Origin: a virus
IMG/VR virus record: IMGVR_UViG_3300022074_000292
Coordinates: 1 to 27,816 of that record
Length of the DNA stretch: 27,816 nucleotides
Strand: one strand, 5' to 3'
Shown in pieces: positions 20,525-27,710 of this stretch; the first letter of the stretch is position 1, and each line of letters begins with the position of its first letter. The position numbers were made by a program, and so were the translations under genes. The notes below the pieces were generated by a model. That model was not told where the DNA came from. It was given only the letters and a program-made list of their open reading frames with translations, and made no database searches.

Positions 20525-20649
20525 AACATAAAGATACATTATCTAAAACCCATTCTACGTCTCGTAAATGGGAAAAGAGCATGAAGAAAAGAACTAAGAA
20601 GTCACAAAGACAATTAGATAAAAAGGTAGCTAAAGATGATCGATATTAA
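20521..20649 (+). CDS. Tiny basic protein ahead of the methyltransferase
   Basis: A 42-codon frame with an ATGA overlap at the front and a 14-base overlap with the methyltransferase start at the end. The product is strongly basic (SRKWEKSMKKRTKKSQRQL) with no recognised family. Support is the seamless packing with neighbours on both sides; the ribosome site is weak. Confidence 0.5.
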   Translation: MKHKDTLSKTHSTSRKWEKSMKKRTKKSQRQLDKKVAKDDRY

Positions 20650-21910
20650 GATCGGAGATTGTAGAGAAAAGCTGAAGGAATTACCGAACAATTTCTTTCA
20701 TACAGTCATTACATCACCTCCATACTGGGGATTACGAGACTACGGAACTGGTAAATGGATCGGTGGAGACCCAAATTGTTCGCATATTGCTGGTAAAGCC
20801 CGTAACGATGCTGATCGGGAATTTGGCACAAAAGAGACATTAACTGTGCAATATCGTGACGTTTGCAAGGATTGTGGTGCAGTCAGGGAGGATAATCAGA
20901 TTGGTATGGAAGCCAGCCCTGAAGAATATGTCCGTAAAATTGTTCGGACTTTTCAGGAAGTAAAACGGGTGCTTCGTGATGATGGAACTCTTTGGCTTAA
21001 CCTTGGTGATAGTTACTCAAGTGGTGGCAGAACGTCTACAACTAATCAAACTGTTAGAGGTGATAAGGATTACGGGGTCACTAGACCTCCCGTATCGGGC
21101 AGTATAAAGCCTAAAGACCTTGTAGGTATACCTTGGAGGGTTGCTCTGGCACTTCAGGAAGATGGATGGTATCTCAGGCAGGACATTATTTGGCATAAGC
21201 CTAATCCTATGCCTGAAAGTGTAAAGGATAGATGCACGAAGGCACATGAATATATATTTCTGCTTACGAAGTCAGAGAAGTATTACTACGACAGTCAAGC
21301 TATTATGGAAGAAGCACAGGACTGGGGAACTCGTGATCGGGCTGATGGTAAGTATCACAACGAAGGAACTGGACTAAGCCCACATACTGGTCTTGAGAAG
21401 TCATATACTCACAGGAACAAAAGAAGCGTGTGGACTGTTGCAGTAAAGCCCTACAACGAAGCCCATTTTGCAGTGTTTCCAACCAGTTTGATTGAACCAG
21501 CGATTCTTGCTGGTTGTCCTCCGAAGATTTGTTCGGAGTGTGGCACTCCATATGAACGGGAAATGGTCACTGTTGAGGTTCCTGAACGGGAAACTAGGGA
21601 CAATATGGTAGGTGTTATACCAAAAAGAGACAAAACTAGCCGTATGAATAGCAAAGATATGAAGTCACTGGTACAGGAAGATAAAGGGTTTACGAAAAAT
21701 TGTTCGTGTTCAGGTCACCAAACTTCTGCTGGTCGGGTGCTGGATCCATTTGGAGGGTCAGGCACAACTGCACTGGTAGCTGATCGACATAAAAGAGATG
21801 CTACAATCATAGAGCTAAATCAAAAATACGTTGATATAGCTGAAACAAGGCTTGGTTCTGATGCACCATTGTTTACACAAATTAAAAGGGAGGTTGTAAA
21901 TGAAAGCTAA
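20636..21910 (+). CDS. DNA N6-adenine/N4-cytosine methyltransferase with zinc-binding inserts
   Basis: A 424-residue SAM-dependent methyltransferase acting on an exocyclic amino group. Motif IV TSPPYWG (SPPY at residues 27-30) comes first and the SAM-binding motif DPFGGSGTT (370-378) last, the order of the beta class. A CxH...CxxC site (C48, H50, C77, C80) and a second Cys cluster (CSECG, later NCSCSG) suggest zinc-stabilised inserts within the target-recognition part. No restriction partner is next to it, so it probably protects phage DNA or controls gene expression. The recognition sequence cannot be read from sequence. The gene itself carries four exact copies of the AATTGTTCG/CGAACAATT motif. 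Confidence 0.92.
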   Translation: MIDIKIGDCREKLKELPNNFFHTVITSPPYWGLRDYGTGKWIGGDPNCSHIAGKARNDADREFGTKETLTVQYRDVCKDCGAVREDNQIGMEASPEEYVRKIVRTFQEVKRVLRDDGTLWLNLGDSYSSGGRTSTTNQTVRGDKDYGVTRPPVSGSIKPKDLVGIPWRVALALQEDGWYLRQDIIWHKPNPMPESVKDRCTKAHEYIFLLTKSEKYYYDSQAIMEEAQDWGTRDRADGKYHNEGTGLSPHTGLEKSYTHRNKRSVWTVAVKPYNEAHFAVFPTSLIEPAILAGCPPKICSECGTPYEREMVTVEVPERETRDNMVGVIPKRDKTSRMNSKDMKSLVQEDKGFTKNCSCSGHQTSAGRVLDPFGGSGTTALVADRHKRDATIIELNQKYVDIAETRLGSDAPLFTQIKREVVNES

Positions 21911-22241
21911 AGGAAAGACCTGTTGCAACTGCAACGAAGAAATTGTTCGGGGTATGGCATTCCCGATAATGAAAAAAAGTATCTGTATGAGCTGTTTTGT
22001 TCATTTTGGACTGGCACAAAAACTGGACATAAGTATGCTTCATTACCAAAATTGTTCGGATGAACATTGCTTCAAATGTGAACTTGCTTTTATGAAAGCA
22101 CTCTGGGCAATGGACTACAAACAGACACAAATGGGCAACTGGTATAAGCGTACCTCAAACCCGAAAATTGTTCGGATTTATGACGATTTACTTACCAACA
22201 TACCAACTTACTCGGTAAGTAGAATGGAGGGTAAGTTATAA
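21900..22241 (+). CDS. Cysteine-rich zinc-binding protein
   Basis: Encodes 113 residues with GGGAGG upstream of an ATG that overlaps the methyltransferase end. Cysteines occur in pairs: CCNC (residues 8-11), CMSC in the thirties, and NCSDEHC plus CFKC near residue 60, enough for two zinc sites in the N-terminal half. The remainder is helical and basic. Probable role is nucleic-acid or protein binding. Three exact copies of the AATTGTTCG motif fall in this short gene, and the first hexamer of the repeat cluster that follows lies in its 3' end. Confidence 0.65.
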   Translation: MKAKGKTCCNCNEEIVRGMAFPIMKKSICMSCFVHFGLAQKLDISMLHYQNCSDEHCFKCELAFMKALWAMDYKQTQMGNWYKRTSNPKIVRIYDDLLTNIPTYSVSRMEGKL

Positions 22242-22392
22242 GTTGTTGATATTACTGGATAAAATCAATCTACTTACACTGGTTACCAAAGGGCTTGGTA
22301 AGTATTTTATGCCCTGTAAGTCATTGATTTTATTGAAACTTACCAACTTACCGAACTTCCCCCCCTATAGGGGGTATAGGGGGGTGGTAAGT
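22190..22392 (+). repeat. Iteron-like cluster: ten ACTTAC/GTAAGT hexamers
   Basis: ACTTAC occurs with its C at 22191, 22207, 22273, 22339 and 22347, and the complement GTAAGT starts at 22215, 22231, 22298, 22316 and 22387: five per strand in about 200 bases. One pair forms ACTTAC-TCG-GTAAGT (22206-22220); another is a direct repeat of period eight (22338-22352). TTACCAA/TTGGTAA and an 11-bp inverted repeat (22259-22269 with 22323-22333) add hairpins. Such arrays bind replication initiators or packaging proteins; here the terminase small-subunit gene follows directly. Confidence 0.7.
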
Positions 22393-22408
22393 AACCACCA
22401 CCCCCTAT
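22361..22408 (+). promoter_or_regulatory. Competing GC-rich hairpins before the terminase small-subunit gene
   Basis: CCCCCTATAGGGGG (22361-22374) is a perfect 14-bp palindrome. Next to it ATAGGGGGGTGGT (22376-22388) pairs with ACCACCACCCCCTAT (22394-22408) around a five-base loop with a two-base bulge. CCCCCTAT is present twice and ATAGGGGG twice, so the two hairpins could exclude each other. The element ends 33 bases before the next ATG, which has its own AAGGAG. It is not followed by a T-run. Confidence 0.6.
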
Positions 22409-22441
22409 CCCAAATAACGTAACGACAAGGAGTAAAAGCTA

Positions 22442-22954
22442 ATGCCCAAAGTAGGTCAGAATTTACCAGAAGAACAAAGACAAAAGGGACTGAAAAGATT
22501 AACTCAGAAACAACAAGCTTTTCTGGATAACTTTATGCACAAGGATATGACTCAGACTAACGCCGCTCGACAAGCTGGGTATAGTAACCCCTCAGTAGAT
22601 GCAGTTAGGTTGCTCCGTAGTGAAGTGGTTCAGGAACGATTTCAGGAGATGCAGGAGGAGAATAGGAGTCGTTTTGGTGTAACGATAGACAAGTCAGTCA
22701 GGGACTTGCTCAAGATCCGTAACGAAGCATGGGAGTCAGGCAAGTTTGGTGAGGCTATTCGGGCTGAAGAACTCCGTTTAAAGGCTACTGGATTGCTTGT
22801 AAACAAGGCTCATGTGCTACATGAGAAAGTAGATAGCATGACAAAGGAAGAAATACTGGATGAACTCCAGAAATTACAACACTTAGCACAGGATCGGATG
22901 AAAAAAGCTAACGTCACCCACATAAACCCAAAGAAGATAGGCAAAAGTAGTTAA
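22442..22954 (+). CDS. Terminase small subunit
   Basis: A 170-residue DNA-packaging protein that recognises the phage packaging site and recruits the large terminase. The N-terminal domain LTQKQQAFLDNFMHKDMTQT then NAARQAGYSNPSVDAVRLL is the helix-turn-helix typical of phage terminase small subunits. The C-terminal half (RNEAWESGKFGEAIRAEELR; LHEKVDSMTKEEILDELQKL) is helical, matching the oligomerisation and portal-contact part. The ATG follows AAGGAGTAAAAGCTA. It is separated from the head genes, and no large subunit is in the window. The hexamer cluster upstream and the structured stretch downstream are candidate binding sites for it. Confidence 0.85.
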   Translation: MPKVGQNLPEEQRQKGLKRLTQKQQAFLDNFMHKDMTQTNAARQAGYSNPSVDAVRLLRSEVVQERFQEMQEENRSRFGVTIDKSVRDLLKIRNEAWESGKFGEAIRAEELRLKATGLLVNKAHVLHEKVDSMTKEEILDELQKLQHLAQDRMKKANVTHINPKKIGKSS

Positions 22955-23340
22955 ATATGGGTACATCTGGGTCTGCACTTGGCGAGTCCGTGGGCAGGGT
23001 CACCGAACAATTTCCATAGGCTACAGGTTATCGGGCTGTGATCGGGGTTGAAACCGACCAATTGTTCGGAGTTGCGTAGCTAATCGGGCTGGTATCGGGT
23101 TGGTATCGGGCTTCCTTCGGGCTACTGTTTGGCTTCCAGCTTGGGTTTCCTTCGGAACCAGCTCTGGGTCAGGAGGCGGATCGGGCTACGCAACTCCCCG
23201 TCCAGACCTGAATACGCACAATTGTTCGCGTTCACGCACAGGTAAGCTGTTGGGTTCGTCCAGCTCTGACTCCGAACAATTGTCCGAAGTCACCAGTTGG
23301 GACAGCAACAGCAGATGCTTCAAAAAAAAATAAAAAAATT
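22955..23340. other. GC-richer structured stretch without credible gene
   Basis: About 380 bases clearly richer in G and C than all surroundings. A 13-bp perfect inverted repeat (23068-23080 with 23185-23197) encloses a 104-base interior with the hairpin AGCT..GGTT.CC-TTC-GGAACC-AGCT (about 23138-23163) and five copies of ATCGGG (two as GGTATCGGG). Four AATTGTTCG/CGAACAATT motifs lie here (23004, 23060, 23220, 23273). The only frame of note (23100-23333) is low-complexity Ser/Gly and not believable. The stretch could be a folded RNA, a packaging site or a recombined remnant. Confidence 0.5.
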
Positions 23341-23351
23341 AATATTAACTG

Positions 23352-23380
23352 TTGACAGGTAGAAATCATTACTATATTAT
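23352..23380 (+). promoter_or_regulatory. Cassette promoter
   Basis: TTGACA (23352-23357) and TATTAT (23375-23380), spacer 17, with GAAATCATTAC (23362-23372) inside. An A-rich tract upstream (23322-23340) may act as UP element. Confidence 0.75.
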
Positions 23381-23410
23381 ATATACATATTCAGCCAAAG
23401 GAGTTAGAAA

Positions 23411-23578
23411 ATGAAAATAGGCGATAGAATAAAAGTAAAGGATCAAGAGATTTATGGAAATGTAGTTTGGATTCACCCCAATGAAGTTGTCATTGAAGAT
23501 GAAGATGCAGATTTATTTAATGATCCTGAAGATAAACAATTAACTTTTAAAAAATCAGAGGTAGAGGAAATAAAATGA
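23411..23578 (+). CDS. Small beta-rich acidic protein
   Basis: Encodes 55 residues. The ATG follows AAAGGAGTTAGAAA, the leader CAGCCAAAGGAG shared with other cassettes, and a strong promoter at 23352. The sequence KIGDRIKVKDQEIYGNVVWI reads like an SH3/KOW-type barrel, followed by an acidic loop (EDEDADLFNDPED). The stop overlaps the next start (ATGA). Function unknown. Confidence 0.65.
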   Translation: MKIGDRIKVKDQEIYGNVVWIHPNEVVIEDEDADLFNDPEDKQLTFKKSEVEEIK

Positions 23579-23985
23579 AAATGGATATTAAAAAAGTAGA
23601 AGCAATCTCAAAGCAGATGGAACTTAACGAAGAACAAGCCAAGCACGTAACACATCAAGACGATCATTATTACACATACGGAAATGAGGAATACATGGTT
23701 TTGACTGATGCAGAAGCACAAGACAAAGTTTTTGAATACATCAAGGAAACTGCTTGGGCATTTACTCCAAGTTTTTTGAGTTGTCATTCAATGATTGATG
23801 AAAAGGTTTTTGAAAAGCTTCAAGAAAGTTGCGAAACATCAAATGATGCGATTCTTACTTTGATCAAAGACTTCAATAGATTTGTAGAAGATGCAGTTTA
23901 CACAGATGGAAGGGGTCATTTTCTAGCTAGTTATGACCACGAAGAACACGAGCAAGGGGACTTTTACCTATATCGTACAAACTAG
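23575..23985 (+). CDS. Conserved phage hypothetical protein
   Basis: Encodes 136 residues, coupled to the previous gene by ATGA with GAGG upstream. It carries an N-terminal YYTYGNEEYMVLTDAEA segment, a helical middle (AQDKVFEYIKETAWAFTPSF) and a C-terminal DGRGHFLASYDHEEHE followed by FYLYRTN. The last pattern is widespread in phages, especially T4-like and cyanophage genomes, but its function is not known to me. The product is acidic and soluble with no signal peptide. A terminator follows 30 bases after the stop. Confidence 0.72.
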   Translation: MKMDIKKVEAISKQMELNEEQAKHVTHQDDHYYTYGNEEYMVLTDAEAQDKVFEYIKETAWAFTPSFLSCHSMIDEKVFEKLQESCETSNDAILTLIKDFNRFVEDAVYTDGRGHFLASYDHEEHEQGDFYLYRTN

Positions 23986-24014
23986 ATCGGGCAGGTTGCC
24001 CAGCAACAATCGGG

Positions 24015-24043
24015 ATCGGGGAAACCTGCTCCCGATTTTTTTT
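24015..24043 (+). terminator. Intrinsic terminator
   Basis: ATCGGG (24015-24020) pairs with CCCGAT (24031-24036) around a ten-base loop, followed by a run of eight T; AATCGGG at 24008 can pair with the same 3' arm. It ends the cassette 23411-23985. Confidence 0.82.
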
Positions 24044-24083
24044 GTGCTGGTACTGGCTCTGCCTCCTGTAGTTAGGTTAAGTA

Positions 24084-24097
24084 CGAACAATTGTTCG
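24084..24097. repeat. Palindrome CGAACAATTGTTCG
   Basis: Perfect 14-bp palindrome about 40 bases after a terminator and before the bidirectional hairpin. Same sequence as at 24824 and in the core of 25552-25569. Confidence 0.85.
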
Positions 24098-24113
24098 AAC
24101 TCAAACACCAGAC

Positions 24114-24156
24114 AAAAAAAAGAGCCGAAGTGGAAAGGTTCCTCGACTCTTTTTTT
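24114..24156. terminator. Bidirectional terminator hairpin
   Basis: Eight A (24114-24121), a stem GAGCCGA/TCGACTC (24122-24128 with 24143-24149) with an inner GGAA/TTCC, and seven T (24150-24156). In leftward RNA the stem has a G-U pair where rightward RNA has a C-A mismatch, so leftward use is favoured. Confidence 0.75.
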
Positions 24157-24275
24157 CATGCTCTCACATTAACTGGGGGAGTTGCTATTTTAGGTCTGTG
24201 AACCCCCTACCCCGAACTTTTGACCTCATATTGTTGTGGTGGGATACTGTAAACCATTACTGTCTTGCCATCACA
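24114..24275 (-). ncRNA. Candidate small RNA with its own promoter and terminator
   Basis: On the complementary strand, TTGACA-N17-TATATA (24305-24310 and 24282-24287) predicts a start near 24275. About 160 bases on, GAGTCGA...TCGGCTC pairs with an inner GGAA/TTTCC stem and runs into eight U residues (complement of 24114-24121). One outer pair is G-U in this strand but a C-A mismatch in the other, so the hairpin favours leftward RNA. The only frame is 16 codons, without a ribosome site. The RNA is inferred and unnamed; its targets are unknown. Confidence 0.5.
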
Positions 24276-24281
24276 TTTATA

Positions 24282-24310
24282 TATATAGCAATCATTACAA
24301 ATAGTGTCAA
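24282..24310 (-). promoter_or_regulatory. Leftward promoter of the candidate small RNA
   Basis: On the complementary strand TTGACA (24305-24310) and TATATA (24282-24287) are exactly 17 bases apart, the closest match to consensus in the window. The operator-like motif (24288-24298) fills the spacer. Confidence 0.75.
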
Positions 24311-24343
24311 GAAGAAAAATAAAAAAAAATAAAATAAAAGTGC

Positions 24344-24371
24344 TTGACTTATATTATGTAATGATTACTAT
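24344..24371 (+). promoter_or_regulatory. Cassette promoter
   Basis: TTGACT (24344-24349) and TACTAT (24366-24371), spacer 16, with the perfect palindrome GTAATGATTAC (24358-24368) over the -10 side. An A-rich tract (24311-24340) shared with the divergent leftward promoter precedes it. Confidence 0.7.
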
Positions 24372-24401
24372 ATAAATATAAACAGCCAATAGGAGATAAA
24401 A

Positions 24402-24680
24402 ATGGTTAAATCAATAAACTTAAAGCTTACACCTGAAGCTAAGTACATATGCTCATGGAATGGCAACAGTATTGTTCAGCTTCATACAAGTGATACTCTT
24501 TATAAAGAATACAAAGAAACTAACTTGTTTGATGAAAACATAGATAGTTACTTTGAGTGTATGGGTAATGGCTTTGATAATTTTATAATGAAAGATTATT
24601 TAGAGCATTCAAGCACAGACAGTGACTTCATAGATGTGAAGTTTTATAACGATAACATGATAATAACAAGAGTAGCATAA
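24402..24680 (+). CDS. Hypothetical protein of a single-promoter cassette
   Basis: Encodes 92 residues with AGGAGATAAAA before the ATG. Beta-rich at the start (KSINLKLTPEAKYICSWNGN; IVQLHTSDTLY), acidic in the middle (ENIDSYFECMGNGFDNFIMK), and ending in a strand (FYNDNMIITRVA). No catalytic motif, signal peptide or recognised family. The stop overlaps the start of a tiny membrane protein (TAATG). Confidence 0.62.
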   Translation: MVKSINLKLTPEAKYICSWNGNSIVQLHTSDTLYKEYKETNLFDENIDSYFECMGNGFDNFIMKDYLEHSSTDSDFIDVKFYNDNMIITRVA

Positions 24681-24769
24681 TGGATAGTTGGGAAATAGCA
24701 TTGGTGGTAGCTCAATCCATCTTCTTCTATGCAGTCGTATGTGCTGTTGTAATAATCATACCATTTTAA
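24680..24769 (+). CDS. Tiny single-pass membrane protein
   Basis: A 29-residue frame coupled to the previous gene by TAATG. After the polar MDSWEIA it is almost wholly hydrophobic (LVVAQSIFFYAVVCAVVIII), enough for one transmembrane helix. Its coupling and its position before a terminator support translation. Such mini-proteins can act as membrane modulators or superinfection factors; nothing more specific can be said, and a holin role is unsupported because the lysozyme lies far away. Confidence 0.55.
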   Translation: MDSWEIALVVAQSIFFYAVVCAVVIIIPF

Positions 24770-24782
24770 GAAGGGAGGAGTT

Positions 24783-24813
24783 GAAGCTGGGTTCGTAGCC
24801 CAGCTTCTTTTTT
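24783..24813 (+). terminator. Intrinsic terminator
   Basis: GAAGCTGGG (24783-24791) pairs with CCCAGCTTC (24799-24807), a nine-base-pair stem with a seven-base loop, followed by six T. It closes the cassette of the hypothetical and membrane protein genes. The GCTGGG/CCCAGC core recurs in two later terminators. Confidence 0.88.
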
Positions 24814-24823
24814 ATCCTGTAAC

Positions 24824-24837
24824 CGAACAATTGTTCG
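24824..24837. repeat. Palindrome CGAACAATTGTTCG
   Basis: Perfect 14-bp palindrome between the terminator and the next gene, identical in core to those at 24084 and 25554. It resembles a GAAC-N4-GTTC operator of the Gram-positive LexA type, but its many half-sites inside genes do not fit a simple operator. Confidence 0.85.
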
Positions 24838-24858
24838 TATTCAAAGAAGGAGAAGCAG

Positions 24859-25044
24859 TTGGAAAAAATTTATTATTATTATGACCACACTTATGGTGAG
24901 GGTTTTGTTATTGGAGATTTTGGAGAGTTAATGAACTTCATTGATGATTCATATGACAAAGACAGACATACGATCCAAGATACTTGGAGAGGTCATAAAG
25001 AAACGTGTAAAGAAAATGATAATATTATCGAAGAAAGGTGTTGA
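24859..25044 (+). CDS. Small acidic protein with TTG start
   Basis: Encodes 61 residues starting from TTG at 24859, with AGAAGGAG seven bases upstream. It is rich in Tyr, Asp and Glu (EKIYYYYDHTYGEG; GELMNFIDDSYDKDRHTI) with two cysteines near the end. No TTGAC-type promoter was found between the preceding terminator and this gene, unlike in the other cassettes, so it may depend on read-through or another promoter near the palindrome. Its stop TGA lies inside the -35 box of the next promoter. No family is recognised. Confidence 0.55.
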   Translation: MEKIYYYYDHTYGEGFVIGDFGELMNFIDDSYDKDRHTIQDTWRGHKETCKENDNIIEERC

Positions 25045-25069
25045 CATCTATTGTAGCAATCATTACTAT
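25041..25069 (+). promoter_or_regulatory. Cassette promoter overlapping a stop codon
   Basis: TTGACA (25041-25046) holds the TGA stop of the preceding gene; TACTAT (25064-25069) follows after 17 bases. GCAATCATTAC (25056-25066) lies at the end of the spacer. Confidence 0.72.
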
Positions 25070-25100
25070 ATAATTATAAACAGTCAATAGGAGATAAATA

Positions 25101-25268
25101 ATGCAAGTTAAAGACTTAATAAAAACTTTGGAAAGACATGATCCTAATAATGAGGTTATTTTTTATAATTTAAGTAATCACAATCTTAAGCAATATAATT
25201 TAGTAGATATTTTGAGTGCAGATGGTCAATGTGAAATTACTACTACAAAGGAGAATGTTGATGTCTAA
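25101..25268 (+). CDS. Small phage hypothetical protein
   Basis: Encodes 55 residues with AGGAGATAAATA before the ATG. The opening QVKDLIKTLERHDPNNEVIF is a pattern often seen in small phage proteins (KDLI..L...DP...V.F). It continues with NLSNHNLKQYNLVDIL. Function unknown. The last eight bases overlap the next gene. Confidence 0.62.
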   Translation: MQVKDLIKTLERHDPNNEVIFYNLSNHNLKQYNLVDILSADGQCEITTTKENVDV

Positions 25269-25509
25269 TTTTTGTTTCACAGACGTTCCTGAAGAGAACG
25301 AACAATTTAGGGTAGCAAAGATCGTTGAGAACGAACATGGTTACTACCCTCTTACAAAAGCCAACCCCAATGATCCACATGAGATCGACAAATTCATAGG
25401 CAGTGCAATGCACGTCAGAGCCATAGTCGATAAATGGAACAAGGAGATAGGAGTTGACAGTGATCGAGAGTGGGAAATTAAGTTCACCACCATGCACAAC
25501 ATAAAGTAG
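25261..25509 (+). CDS. Small hypothetical protein
   Basis: Encodes 82 residues from the ATG at 25261, which has AAAGGAG upstream; the earlier in-frame ATG at 25216 lies inside the previous gene. The product is mixed and acidic (SNFCFTDVPEENEQFRVAKI; IDKFIGSAMHVRAIVDKW). No motif is recognised. An exact CGAACAATT motif falls in its coding sequence (25299). A terminator follows eight bases after the stop. Confidence 0.62.
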   Translation: MSNFCFTDVPEENEQFRVAKIVENEHGYYPLTKANPNDPHEIDKFIGSAMHVRAIVDKWNKEIGVDSDREWEIKFTTMHNIK

Positions 25510-25517
25510 AAAAAACA

Positions 25518-25541
25518 GGCTGGGTTCTCCCAGCCTTTTTT
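25518..25541 (+). terminator. Intrinsic terminator
   Basis: GGCTGGG (25518-25524) pairs with CCCAGCC (25529-25535) around TTCT, followed by six T. It ends the two-gene cassette before the GGCT-like gene. Confidence 0.9.
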
Positions 25542-25551
25542 ACTGGCTGTA

Positions 25552-25569
25552 TACGAACAATTGTTCGTA
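25552..25569. repeat. Extended palindrome TACGAACAATTGTTCGTA
   Basis: The longest copy of the shared palindrome, 18 perfect base pairs, lying eleven bases after a terminator and about 44 bases before the next -35 box. The core is the same 14-mer as at 24084 and 24824. Confidence 0.88.
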
Positions 25570-25612
25570 GTTCCGTGGCTGGATCTGCTGTGAAAAAAAA
25601 TAAAAAAAGATG

Positions 25613-25641
25613 TTGACAGGTGTAGCAATCAATACTATATT
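25613..25641 (+). promoter_or_regulatory. Promoter of the GGCT-like gene
   Basis: TTGACA (25613-25618) and TATATT (25636-25641), spacer 17, with GCAATCAATAC (25625-25635) inside and an A-rich tract (25593-25609) upstream. Confidence 0.75.
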
Positions 25642-25675
25642 ATATATAAATCAATTTCAGCCAAAGGAGATAAAA

Positions 25676-26176
25676 ATGAAAAAGATTTATATTGCTTACG
25701 GAGCAAATACAAATAGAAGGGCAATGGCACGAAGGTGTCCCAATGCCAAACCAATGGGGTCTGGTTTCATTGTCGGTCAAAGGTTTAAGTTTAATAACGT
25801 AGCAGACATCGTTCCAACACAAGTAGGTAGTGGAGTATCAGATGCACCAGCAGTTGCTTGGCAGATCACACCTGATTGTGAAAAAGCACTTGATAGATTT
25901 GAGGGTTTTCCGAGTTTGTACAGAAAGATTGACGTTACCTTTCAAGCAGATGGTGAATACCTTAATGGCTTTGCTTACAAGATGAATTATACAGGATTCC
26001 ATACACCAAGTCCTATATATGTTGATGGTATCAGAACTGGATTGAAGAACTTTTTCAATGCAAGTTACTGGCACATGATCGACAACTCTATTGACTCTGC
26101 AATTATAGAGAGTTTCAGAATGGAGGAAACGGGAAGCCCGTTGACTAAACGGGTTGGTGGCAAGCAGTGGAGGTAA
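25676..26176 (+). CDS. GGCT/AIG2-like cyclotransferase
   Basis: Encodes 166 residues from the ATG at 25676, set by AGGAGATAAAA and by the promoter at 25613; the longer frame from 25610 would start upstream of transcription. The gamma-glutamylcyclotransferase fold is indicated by YIAYGANTN (residues 5-13, the substrate-binding loop, YGSN in most), MARRCPNA, then PAVAWQITPDCEKALDRFEG with Glu76 as likely catalytic acid/base, followed by FPSLYRK. Such enzymes cyclise gamma-glutamyl amines to release 5-oxoproline. The next gene is an amidoligase, a pairing reported in comparative genomics of peptide-modifying systems. The substrate is unknown. Each gene has its own control region. Confidence 0.82.
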   Translation: MKKIYIAYGANTNRRAMARRCPNAKPMGSGFIVGQRFKFNNVADIVPTQVGSGVSDAPAVAWQITPDCEKALDRFEGFPSLYRKIDVTFQADGEYLNGFAYKMNYTGFHTPSPIYVDGIRTGLKNFFNASYWHMIDNSIDSAIIESFRMEETGSPLTKRVGGKQWR

Positions 26177-26195
26177 GTTTCTCCTAAGGCAAAAG

Positions 26196-26224
26196 CCCAG
26201 CTTCCAGTCGGAGCTGGGTTTTTT
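26196..26224 (+). terminator. Intrinsic terminator
   Basis: CCCAGC plus TCC (26196-26205) pairs with GGA plus GCTGGG (26210-26218) around AGTC with one unpaired T, followed by six T. It ends the GGCT-like gene transcript. Confidence 0.85.
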
Positions 26225-26427
26225 CTGGTGTGAATCCGTACAATTGTTCGGGTTGATCGGGCATCGGGGAAGCTGGCTCCTGTAAAATTTTTGATGAAGC
26301 TCCTTATGGTATATAGGGTAATGGGTAAAAAAATTTTTATTTTTTTTTAATTTTTAAAAAATGTAATAAAATCAACAACTTAATCGCAGCTACAAAAAAA
26401 AGTTATAATTGTTCGTATTTAAGTATT

Positions 26428-26456
26428 GCAATCATTACATAAAAAGATTATATAAT
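26428..26456 (+). promoter_or_regulatory. Operator-like motif and -10 box before the amidoligase gene
   Basis: GCAATCATTAC (26428-26438) is an exact copy of the cassette operator motif. TATAAT (26451-26456) is a good -10, but the only -35 candidate is TTGCAA (26426-26431) at 19 bases, so the promoter is tentative. Confidence 0.5.
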
Positions 26457-26498
26457 TACTATACTAAGCAATGTTAAATTTTTGGAAAGGAAACAACA

Positions 26499-27710
26499 GT
26501 GCAAAATTTATTTAATAACAAAACAATAGCAATAGGTTTAGAACCTGAATTAGTAGGTGTAAGCCCAAACAGTATGAATGCTTTCAATAGTGGATCAAAC
26601 AAAATCAAAGGTTTAAATTATAAATCTGATCCTTCTGTTGGAACAGAATGCGATCTTCCCGTTTTAGCAGATTGTCAATTCACACGTGATTATATGACAA
26701 GTGTATATAATCAAATCACTAGCCAAGGTGGAAGAGTTAACGTTAAATGTTCAACACACGTCCATCTTTCCACCATGCCAATCAAACAAGGTTTATCAAA
26801 TGAAGAATTTTCTAGACGTTCTGTTGAAATGAGAAATTCAAACAGAAATTATTTAGAGAATAATAATCTTGTTTCAGAATTGTTTGATACTAGCACTAAT
26901 TCAAGATTACCTTTAGACGTGGTTAAAGATGTTCTTTACAGAGTATCTAAGCATATTGATTTCTTCCATTCATGTGTTGCTAAGTCTAGACGTGACGATG
27001 GTGGATATTGTAACAGTGCAGGACGTCCAAATGGCTATTGGTGTAGAAAACCTGCTAGTATTACTCAAATACTTAATGCTAGAGTTACTCAACATGATCT
27101 AGAACGTGTTCAAAATCATACTAACAGTACAAGAAAATACAGTGCTGTTAATTGCCAACACTATGGATCTAAAAAAACTATAGAATTTAGATCACATGGT
27201 GGAACATTAGAAACCAATAAAATATTTACTTGGATTAACTTTTTACAAAACATGGTTAATCATAGTCTTCAAACACGTTTTAAAGCTGATACAGTGACAG
27301 AACAGTTAACTAGTCCTAGTTATATAGGAAGATCTTCAAACACTGTTAAATCACGTTTATGGTCTTTTTGTAGAACAGAAGGTGGACGTTCTGTTGAAGA
27401 GATTATGTCACATTGTAATATCAATAATGCTCAAAGTGTTAGACGTACAATATCAGAAATTAGAGCTGAGGAAAGATATGATCCTTTTATTGTTACACAT
27501 AATCAGCAGGAATATGGTGTTAGATATGGTACATCAAATGCTTATTCTAACAATGGCTATGAGGTGTTAACATCCACGAATGTTAACAGACCATCAAACA
27601 ATTTAAGTTTTATTTCTAATAGTGATGAACGTGGTAAAAGTGATTTACTTGCAGGTTTAGACAATCAAACAATTGCAGATTTAAATGAAAGAATTTCTTC
27701 ATTTAGATAA
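26499..27710 (+). CDS. Putative amidoligase (PF12224-type COOH-NH2 ligase)
   Basis: Encodes 403 residues from a GTG start with GGAAAGGAAAC upstream. It shows the glutamine-synthetase-like amidoligase pattern: GLEPELVG (Glu15, Glu17), KSDPSVGTECDLP (Asp44, Glu50), KCSTHVHLS (His87, His89), then about 130 residues on YSAVNCQHYGSKKTIEFRSH with Glu229 and Arg231, and ETNKIFTWINFLQNMV. These residues bind metal and ATP in the family, which joins a carboxylate to an amine. Residues of roughly 300-350 (RSVEEIMSHCNINNAQSVRR; TISEIRAEERYD) look like a winged helix. Paired with the GGCT-like gene it may add and remove gamma-glutamyl-type links on a peptide or protein; the target is not known. Confidence 0.83.
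   Translation: MQNLFNNKTIAIGLEPELVGVSPNSMNAFNSGSNKIKGLNYKSDPSVGTECDLPVLADCQFTRDYMTSVYNQITSQGGRVNVKCSTHVHLSTMPIKQGLSNEEFSRRSVEMRNSNRNYLENNNLVSELFDTSTNSRLPLDVVKDVLYRVSKHIDFFHSCVAKSRRDDGGYCNSAGRPNGYWCRKPASITQILNARVTQHDLERVQNHTNSTRKYSAVNCQHYGSKKTIEFRSHGGTLETNKIFTWINFLQNMVNHSLQTRFKADTVTEQLTSPSYIGRSSNTVKSRLWSFCRTEGGRSVEEIMSHCNINNAQSVRRTISEIRAEERYDPFIVTHNQQEYGVRYGTSNAYSNNGYEVLTSTNVNRPSNNLSFISNSDERGKSDLLAGLDNQTIADLNERISSFR

Follow-up and report, generated by a model that had tools for sequence, protein, structure and literature searches.

A word array around putative IHF sites near terS recurs with different words in uncultured marine phages

The word array upstream of terS

The window, by which we mean the whole 27,816-base virus record analysed here, carries a gene for the terminase small subunit (terS, 22442–22954, plus strand) whose 170-aa product matched PHROG 51 (E 5.3e-15) and the Pfam family Terminase_2 (E 1.7e-9). 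This protein had no match in the phage collection searched, and two TerS profiles compared with genome contigs found no relative. An array of short repeats (22190–22392) ends ~50 bp before the start of terS, and the end of the primase gene lies 5.1 kb from it. The 3′ end of a 113-aa CxxC ORF (21900–22241, plus strand), zinc-ribbon-like as judged by eye, lies inside the array; this ORF occupies the same place in 6 of 6 relatives and is fast evolving (27–88% identity). Just upstream of this ORF and the array we observed an N6/N4 DNA methyltransferase gene (20636–21910), which is present in the relative G006 and absent from G001–G005.

The original prediction had described ten ACTTAC/GTAAGT hexamers at this place, and a recount of exact copies returned the same number, five per strand. 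When the window was shuffled 50 times with dinucleotides preserved, the densest hexamer never exceeded five copies per 220 bp (five in 33 shuffles, four in 17), as compared with ten in the real sequence. Over the whole window ACTTAC is weakly enriched, with 25 copies found versus 15.5 expected, so that the excess corresponds to the cluster. An eight-base period, which had also been proposed, is present at 22338/22346 and at 22190, 22198 (a variant copy) and 22206, and the two inverted copies separated by three bases lie at 22206–22211 and 22215–22220, on either side of TCG. What did not stand was the hexamer as the unit: the repeated word is the heptamer ACTTACC, with seven exact sites (22190, 22338 and 22346 on the plus strand; 22214, 22230, 22297 and 22386 on the minus strand) and five sites with one mismatch (22198, 22206, 22272 and 22355 on the plus strand; 22315 on the minus strand). 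ACTTCC variants occur in the arrays of relatives. Counts, shuffles and conservation outline ~12 sites of the form ACTT(A/C)CC / GG(T/G)AAGT, on both strands.

IHF is a bacterial DNA-bending protein with the consensus WATCAANNNNTTR. The complements of TAAGTTGTTGATA (left site, 22239–22251, minus strand) and TAAGTCATTGATT (right site, 22317–22329, minus strand) fit this consensus and an A/T-rich flank is present; we take both to be putative IHF sites, and both, although missed by the original prediction, belong to the feature as judged from its sequence. The right site lies inside the 21-mer TGTAAGTCATTGATTTTATTG (22314–22334), the most conserved stretch of the region. The pair is exactly 78 bp apart in five of the seven clade records examined, the other two keeping the right site only, and all 30 of the 30 arrays that were aligned contain TAAGTCATTG unchanged. 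A BLAST search of the region against named phages and plasmids returned, with one exception, matches confined to this stretch: all of those to phages and five of the six to plasmids. Exact copies of the 19-mer core of the right site, TAAGTCATTGATTTTATTG, occur in at least 120 viral contig stretches (L097–L216), many of them unrelated; its contexts are varied and include attP-like sites beside tRNA sequence. The core was absent from the open-licence papers searched.

On the terS side of the array lies a set of GC-rich inverted repeats with arms at 22360–22369/22375–22384, 22367–22375/22400–22408 and 22380–22388/22397–22405. Since these repeats overlap they compete with one another, in agreement with the mutually exclusive hairpins that had been suggested. 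The first dyad, CCCCCCCTATAGGGGGTATAGGGGG (22359–22383), is an element with a central TATA, and similar elements stand beside other words, CCCCCCCTATAAGGGGGG in L215 and CCCCCTATAGGGG in L195. The second dyad, GGGGGGTGGTAAGTAACCACCACCCCC (22379–22405), has an inverted heptamer at its centre and competes with the first. Members of the clade have CCCCCCCTATAGGGGG, CCCCCTATAAGGGGG or CCCCCCTAAAGGGGGG as the GC element, with TTTAGGGGG as partner, and the second dyad appears at the same place as GGTGGT/ACCACC, GGAGG/CCTC, GGCGG/CCGCC or GTCGGT/ACCGAC. Symmetry is therefore kept despite the base changes, as judged by eye and without a statistical control.

Conservation of the layout and diversity of its words

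A search with the window TerS led to 80 terS loci, which make up the window clade. An array of at least 11 ACTT(A/C)C-type sites in 230 bp is present in 67 of them, and the remaining 13 are those with only 0–315 bp of upstream sequence available. The repeats are conserved in relatives, so that the lack of conservation named as a refutation in the original prediction did not materialize. In some loci (for example L002, L049, L052 and L071) the 400 bp before terS hold few or no ACTTAC copies and the full array is found further up; in L002 a small extra ORF, recognized by eye, lies between array and terS.

Near terS of other phages the same layout is seen with other words: a word array, IHF-consensus sites and, in many cases, a CCCCTATAGGGG-like element. 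Near the IHF 19-mer we found CTGGAGCA (L117, L099), CTGGCGCA (L162), TTGACGT (L215, L167, L172), TTGCACA (L102 type), GCGGAAA (L195), CCGTAAC (L194), TGGTACA (L098), GTGTGCA (L209) and GTGTCAA (L191). With CTGGAGCA and CTGGCGCA counted as one type and ACTTACC included, there are nine word types, a sample that is not random, as the types were picked via the 19-mer and by eye from repeat counts. In six of the nine, terS lies within ~1.8 kb and the array is upstream of it in all six, with an IHF site to terS distance of ~0.1–0.6 kb in the window, 0.18 kb in L215, 0.47 kb in L102, 1.1 kb in L117, 1.2 kb in L209 and ~1.7 kb in L195. No terS was found for L194, L098 and L191, in records that are partial or in which only some of the ORFs were scanned.

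We then counted words at loci retrieved with three other TerS queries. With that of L215, all 75 loci having at least 250 bp upstream (from 77 taken in and 80 matches listed) carry 4–9 copies of one 7-mer 41–515 bp from the start of the match, and the same zone contains the IHF consensus in 73 of 75 and a TATA/GC element in 70 of 75. In 26 sampled loci of this family the real sequences hold 4–9 copies versus 2–4 in 260 shuffles; these upstream counts are to be read with caution, since the region 3′ of terS is likewise repeat-rich (4–8 copies) because of a GC-rich island. The TerS of L117, which belongs to another PHROG, retrieved 21 loci with at least 1.4 kb of upstream sequence, of which 19 have 6–10 copies 0.66–1.0 kb from terS and the other two have four. 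The HTVC023P query returned 71 loci whose upstream sequence reaches 240 bp or more, and in most of them CTAGGAAA-type words lie 28–138 bp before terS; at least four copies are present in 62 and only three in nine, and the IHF consensus is absent from 70 of the 71, the other locus having one. Sampled loci of the HTVC023P and L117 queries hold 3–7 (n = 22) and 4–10 (n = 10) real copies, respectively, and four copies were reached in 3/260 shuffles for L215, 2/220 for HTVC023P and 3/100 for L117.

Among the named relatives identified by TerL, four have an annotated terS. The array is upstream of terS in HTVC023P, a phage grown on Pelagibacter HTCC1062 whose array has the word CTAGGAAA, seven copies of TGGCACA lie beyond the 3′ end of an inverted terS in 023Pt_psg01, and no clear array was found at terS in HTVC027P or DSL-LC04. 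To judge from these sequences, which apart from the named phages come from uncultured contigs, many uncultured marine phages carry ~10 copies of a short word around one or two putative bending sites near a packaging gene. In the open-licence literature searched we found precedents only, and no description of an array of this kind. The claim that this is a protein-binding array gains support from its retention in 67 of 80 loci, from the IHF-consensus sites and from the concerted change of the word in relatives.

Word and TerS in close relatives

The original prediction had implied that TerS itself might read the repeats. Within the window clade the two are inseparable, since all arrays are of the ACTTACC type. 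Within the L117-type group almost all copies of the nine-base word change from one close relative to another. The records G030 and G031 carry ACTGGAGCA and ACTGACGCA, respectively, and their TerS differ at two residues (T2S and D117G), with TerL matching over 470/470. G033 carries ACTGACGCA and G036/G035 carry ACTGGAGAA, with zero to one TerS residue different (zero over the 119 residues compared between G033 and G036), and G037 and L308 carry ACCGTCGCA and ACTGACGCA with one residue different. The primase-helicase is 93–98% identical in these pairs. One-mismatch forms of the word persist, with seven exact and three one-mismatch copies in G031 and six and four in G033. The L215 group offers a further pair, in which TTGACGT in L482 is replaced by TTGGGTA in L485 and TerS is identical from MPKVG on. 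In two related groups, then, most or all copies have taken on a new word next to an identical or nearly identical TerS, a comparison that speaks against a TerS that reads the hexamers. Conversely, ACTTACC is kept in the window clade while TerS drops to 75%; these two observations indicate that word and TerS evolve apart, and TerS is probably not the sole reader of the word, as far as sequence comparison can tell.

A search among the genes near the array found none that follows the word. In the L117 type, TerS, TerL, primase, endonuclease and a 149-aa gene do not track it, nor do the recognition helix of the repressor (assigned by eye), the zinc-ribbon gene or the Cro-like gene, the last being 98% identical in G030 and G031 despite the change of word. 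In the L215 group the same holds for the small genes next to the array. A DNA methyltransferase was discarded as reader because it is missing in five of six window-clade relatives that keep ACTTACC; two C5 methyltransferases occur in two ACTGACGCA records, which are too few cases. A variable protein encoded between TerL and portal seemed linked to the word and was rejected, only its C-terminal part being shared.

The zinc-ribbon gene, NrdR-like by eye, lies between the array and terS, ~0.3 kb before terS, in nine of ten L117-type records, and its protein is identical in two records with different words. The protein between TerL and portal measures 393–780 aa in G031, G033 and G039, which share its C-terminal part and have N-terminal parts that are for the most part unrelated; in G030 the place is taken by an unrelated protein of 736 aa.

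Packaging, replication or regulation

We read the feature most readily as a cis-acting nucleoprotein site adjacent to terS. IHF would bend the DNA twice and thereby gather the heptamers in a single complex, which a sequence-specific protein would build. This complex would position the terminase, so that concatemeric phage DNA might receive its first cut close by, perhaps in the GC element with the central TATA. The word would be read by a further phage or host factor, probably not by TerS alone, which would leave word and terminase free to evolve apart. Our opinion is evenly divided on whether the array is in this way an IHF-organised site of packaging initiation; the packaging site of the original prediction is favored by the place by terS and by the likeness to P1 pac and lambda cosB, but TerS is probably not the only reader of the word. 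Packaging is also opposed by the array located 3′ of the inverted terS in 023Pt_psg01, by HTVC027P and DSL-LC04, and by the 70 of 71 HTVC023P-type loci in which IHF consensus was not found.

The separation of word and TerS lowers the packaging reading and raises that of a replication origin, its main rival, because an origin needs no contact with TerS. The heptamers would then be iterons for an initiator, with IHF bending the DNA and the GC dyads aiding strand opening or priming. Iterons with IHF are a known origin design in several plasmids and phages, and the independence of the word from TerS fits an initiator encoded elsewhere. The primase-helicase gene lies 0.2–1.5 kb from the array in the L117, L194, L195 and L102 types, and in L117 and L195 the primase is closer to the array than terS, which speaks against packaging. 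Yet the near identity of the primase-helicase in word-swap pairs, the position of the window array, 50 bp from terS and 5.1 kb from the primase end, and a GC-rich core in which no AT-rich unwinding region was noticed by eye make an origin unlikely. R6K and pSC101 have IHF-assisted origins, which resemble the array in combining repeats with IHF, but have longer direct iterons, an AT-rich opening region and DnaA boxes, none of which was noticed at the array. The GC-skew check for an origin gave no turn at the array in five of five long relatives, and says little because nearly all genes are on one strand.

It is distinctly improbable that the array is an enhancer or operator at which a phage activator or repressor on the heptamers, with an IHF loop, controls terS or the late operon. 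In favor of this, most loci have the array upstream of terS, and the words of regulators are known to differ among related phages. Against it, extra sequence or genes may separate array and terS (for example in L002, L049, L052 and L071), in 023Pt_psg01 it lies on the 3′ side of terS, and neither the repressor helix nor Cro of the L117 type tracks the word. The symmetry that the GC dyads keep through several base changes, as seen by eye, would suit a structured RNA leader or a terminator of the upstream operon; this is very doubtful, since all 11 heptamers of L195 run in one direction and cannot be hairpin arms there, the IHF-consensus sites recur and no T-run follows the GC dyads. We give hardly any credence to an attP in which the heptamers are arm-type sites with IHF between them. 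The same IHF 19-mer does occur in attP-like sites beside tRNA sequence in L123, L132 and L145, with arm pairs 10–11 bp apart and an integrase present in each record. The spacing geometry of those sites, however, differs from that of the terS arrays, and a tyrosine integrase was found in 0/9 window-clade and 0/14 further terS-array records (0/23, records that may be fragments), compared with 14/14 control genomes; in L195 and L117 the integrase is ~31 kb and 7.6 kb from the array, respectively.

Cutting across packaging and replication, we tentatively consider a modular "address" as a possible arrangement. A fixed scaffold (IHF bends, TATA-centred GC dyad and site positions) would hold an exchangeable word of 7–9 bases, swapped array-wide with TerS, TerL, primase and neighbours kept, and an unlinked phage or host protein would set self-recognition for packaging or replication. 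A 2022 review (PMC9611059) describes the way in which small terminases locate viral DNA as elusive and controversial. The arrays form a class of sites known in dozens of naturally occurring variants, where nature itself has uncoupled the word from TerS, and this makes it testable which protein reads the word and whether packaging or replication starts there. If it is packaging, sites working like P1 pac would be widespread in marine phages. The layout also offers a simple signature by which metagenomes can be searched for such sites.

The closest precedent is P1 pac, for which a bound, bent structure is described in parts of one report (PMC10028697). In the P1 record (L289) TGATCA/G words lie at 723, 730, 742 and 757 and again at 853, 865 and 876, around an annotated IHF site at 785–797 with annotated cuts beside it at 805–814. 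Like the array, pac thus has short words on both sides of an IHF site over ~160 bp at the small-subunit gene, pacA, and the multiple short repeats flanking an IHF-consensus site at terS are its counterpart here. The P1 words, on the other hand, are Dam sites inside pacA thought to be bound by PacA/PacB, whereas the heptamers lie outside terS, are phage-specific, are not tracked by TerS and are accompanied by two IHF-consensus sites and a TATA-centred GC dyad. Lambda cosB (R3-I1-R2-R1) likewise has TerS-linked repeats around an IHF bend, according to sections of a further paper (PMC4856287), but three R sites versus ~12 heptamers; the ends of lambda DNA are fixed and cohesive.

The genome G001 closes on itself through a 25-bp overlap with the array inside, which fits permuted or end-joined DNA and is undecisive between the readings; the HTVC023P-type genomes, which close circularly according to parts of one publication (PMC9599517), fit the same expectation and are equally undecisive. 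Contig ends were rejected as packaging ends. They pile up in the array and 119–294 bp after terS, spread over tens of bases and not at one base, contigs from the left and from the right overlap at these places, and each of the two contains repeats or sequence shared between strains, so the clusters probably mark conserved sequence or repeats.

Contigs often break in the GC-rich island 3′ of terS, which in the window (22960–23335, in a genome of 37% GC) contains ATCGGGCT-like repeats and GAACAATTGTTC elements; a similar island follows terS in most window-clade and L215-type loci examined. A further repeat, AATTGTTCG, and the palindrome CGAACAATTGTTCG are scattered over coding and non-coding sequence of the whole window (57 matches with at most one mismatch versus 8.4 expected), most densely at 20600–26500, and are also common in G001, G002, G004 and G006 and rare in G003 and G005.
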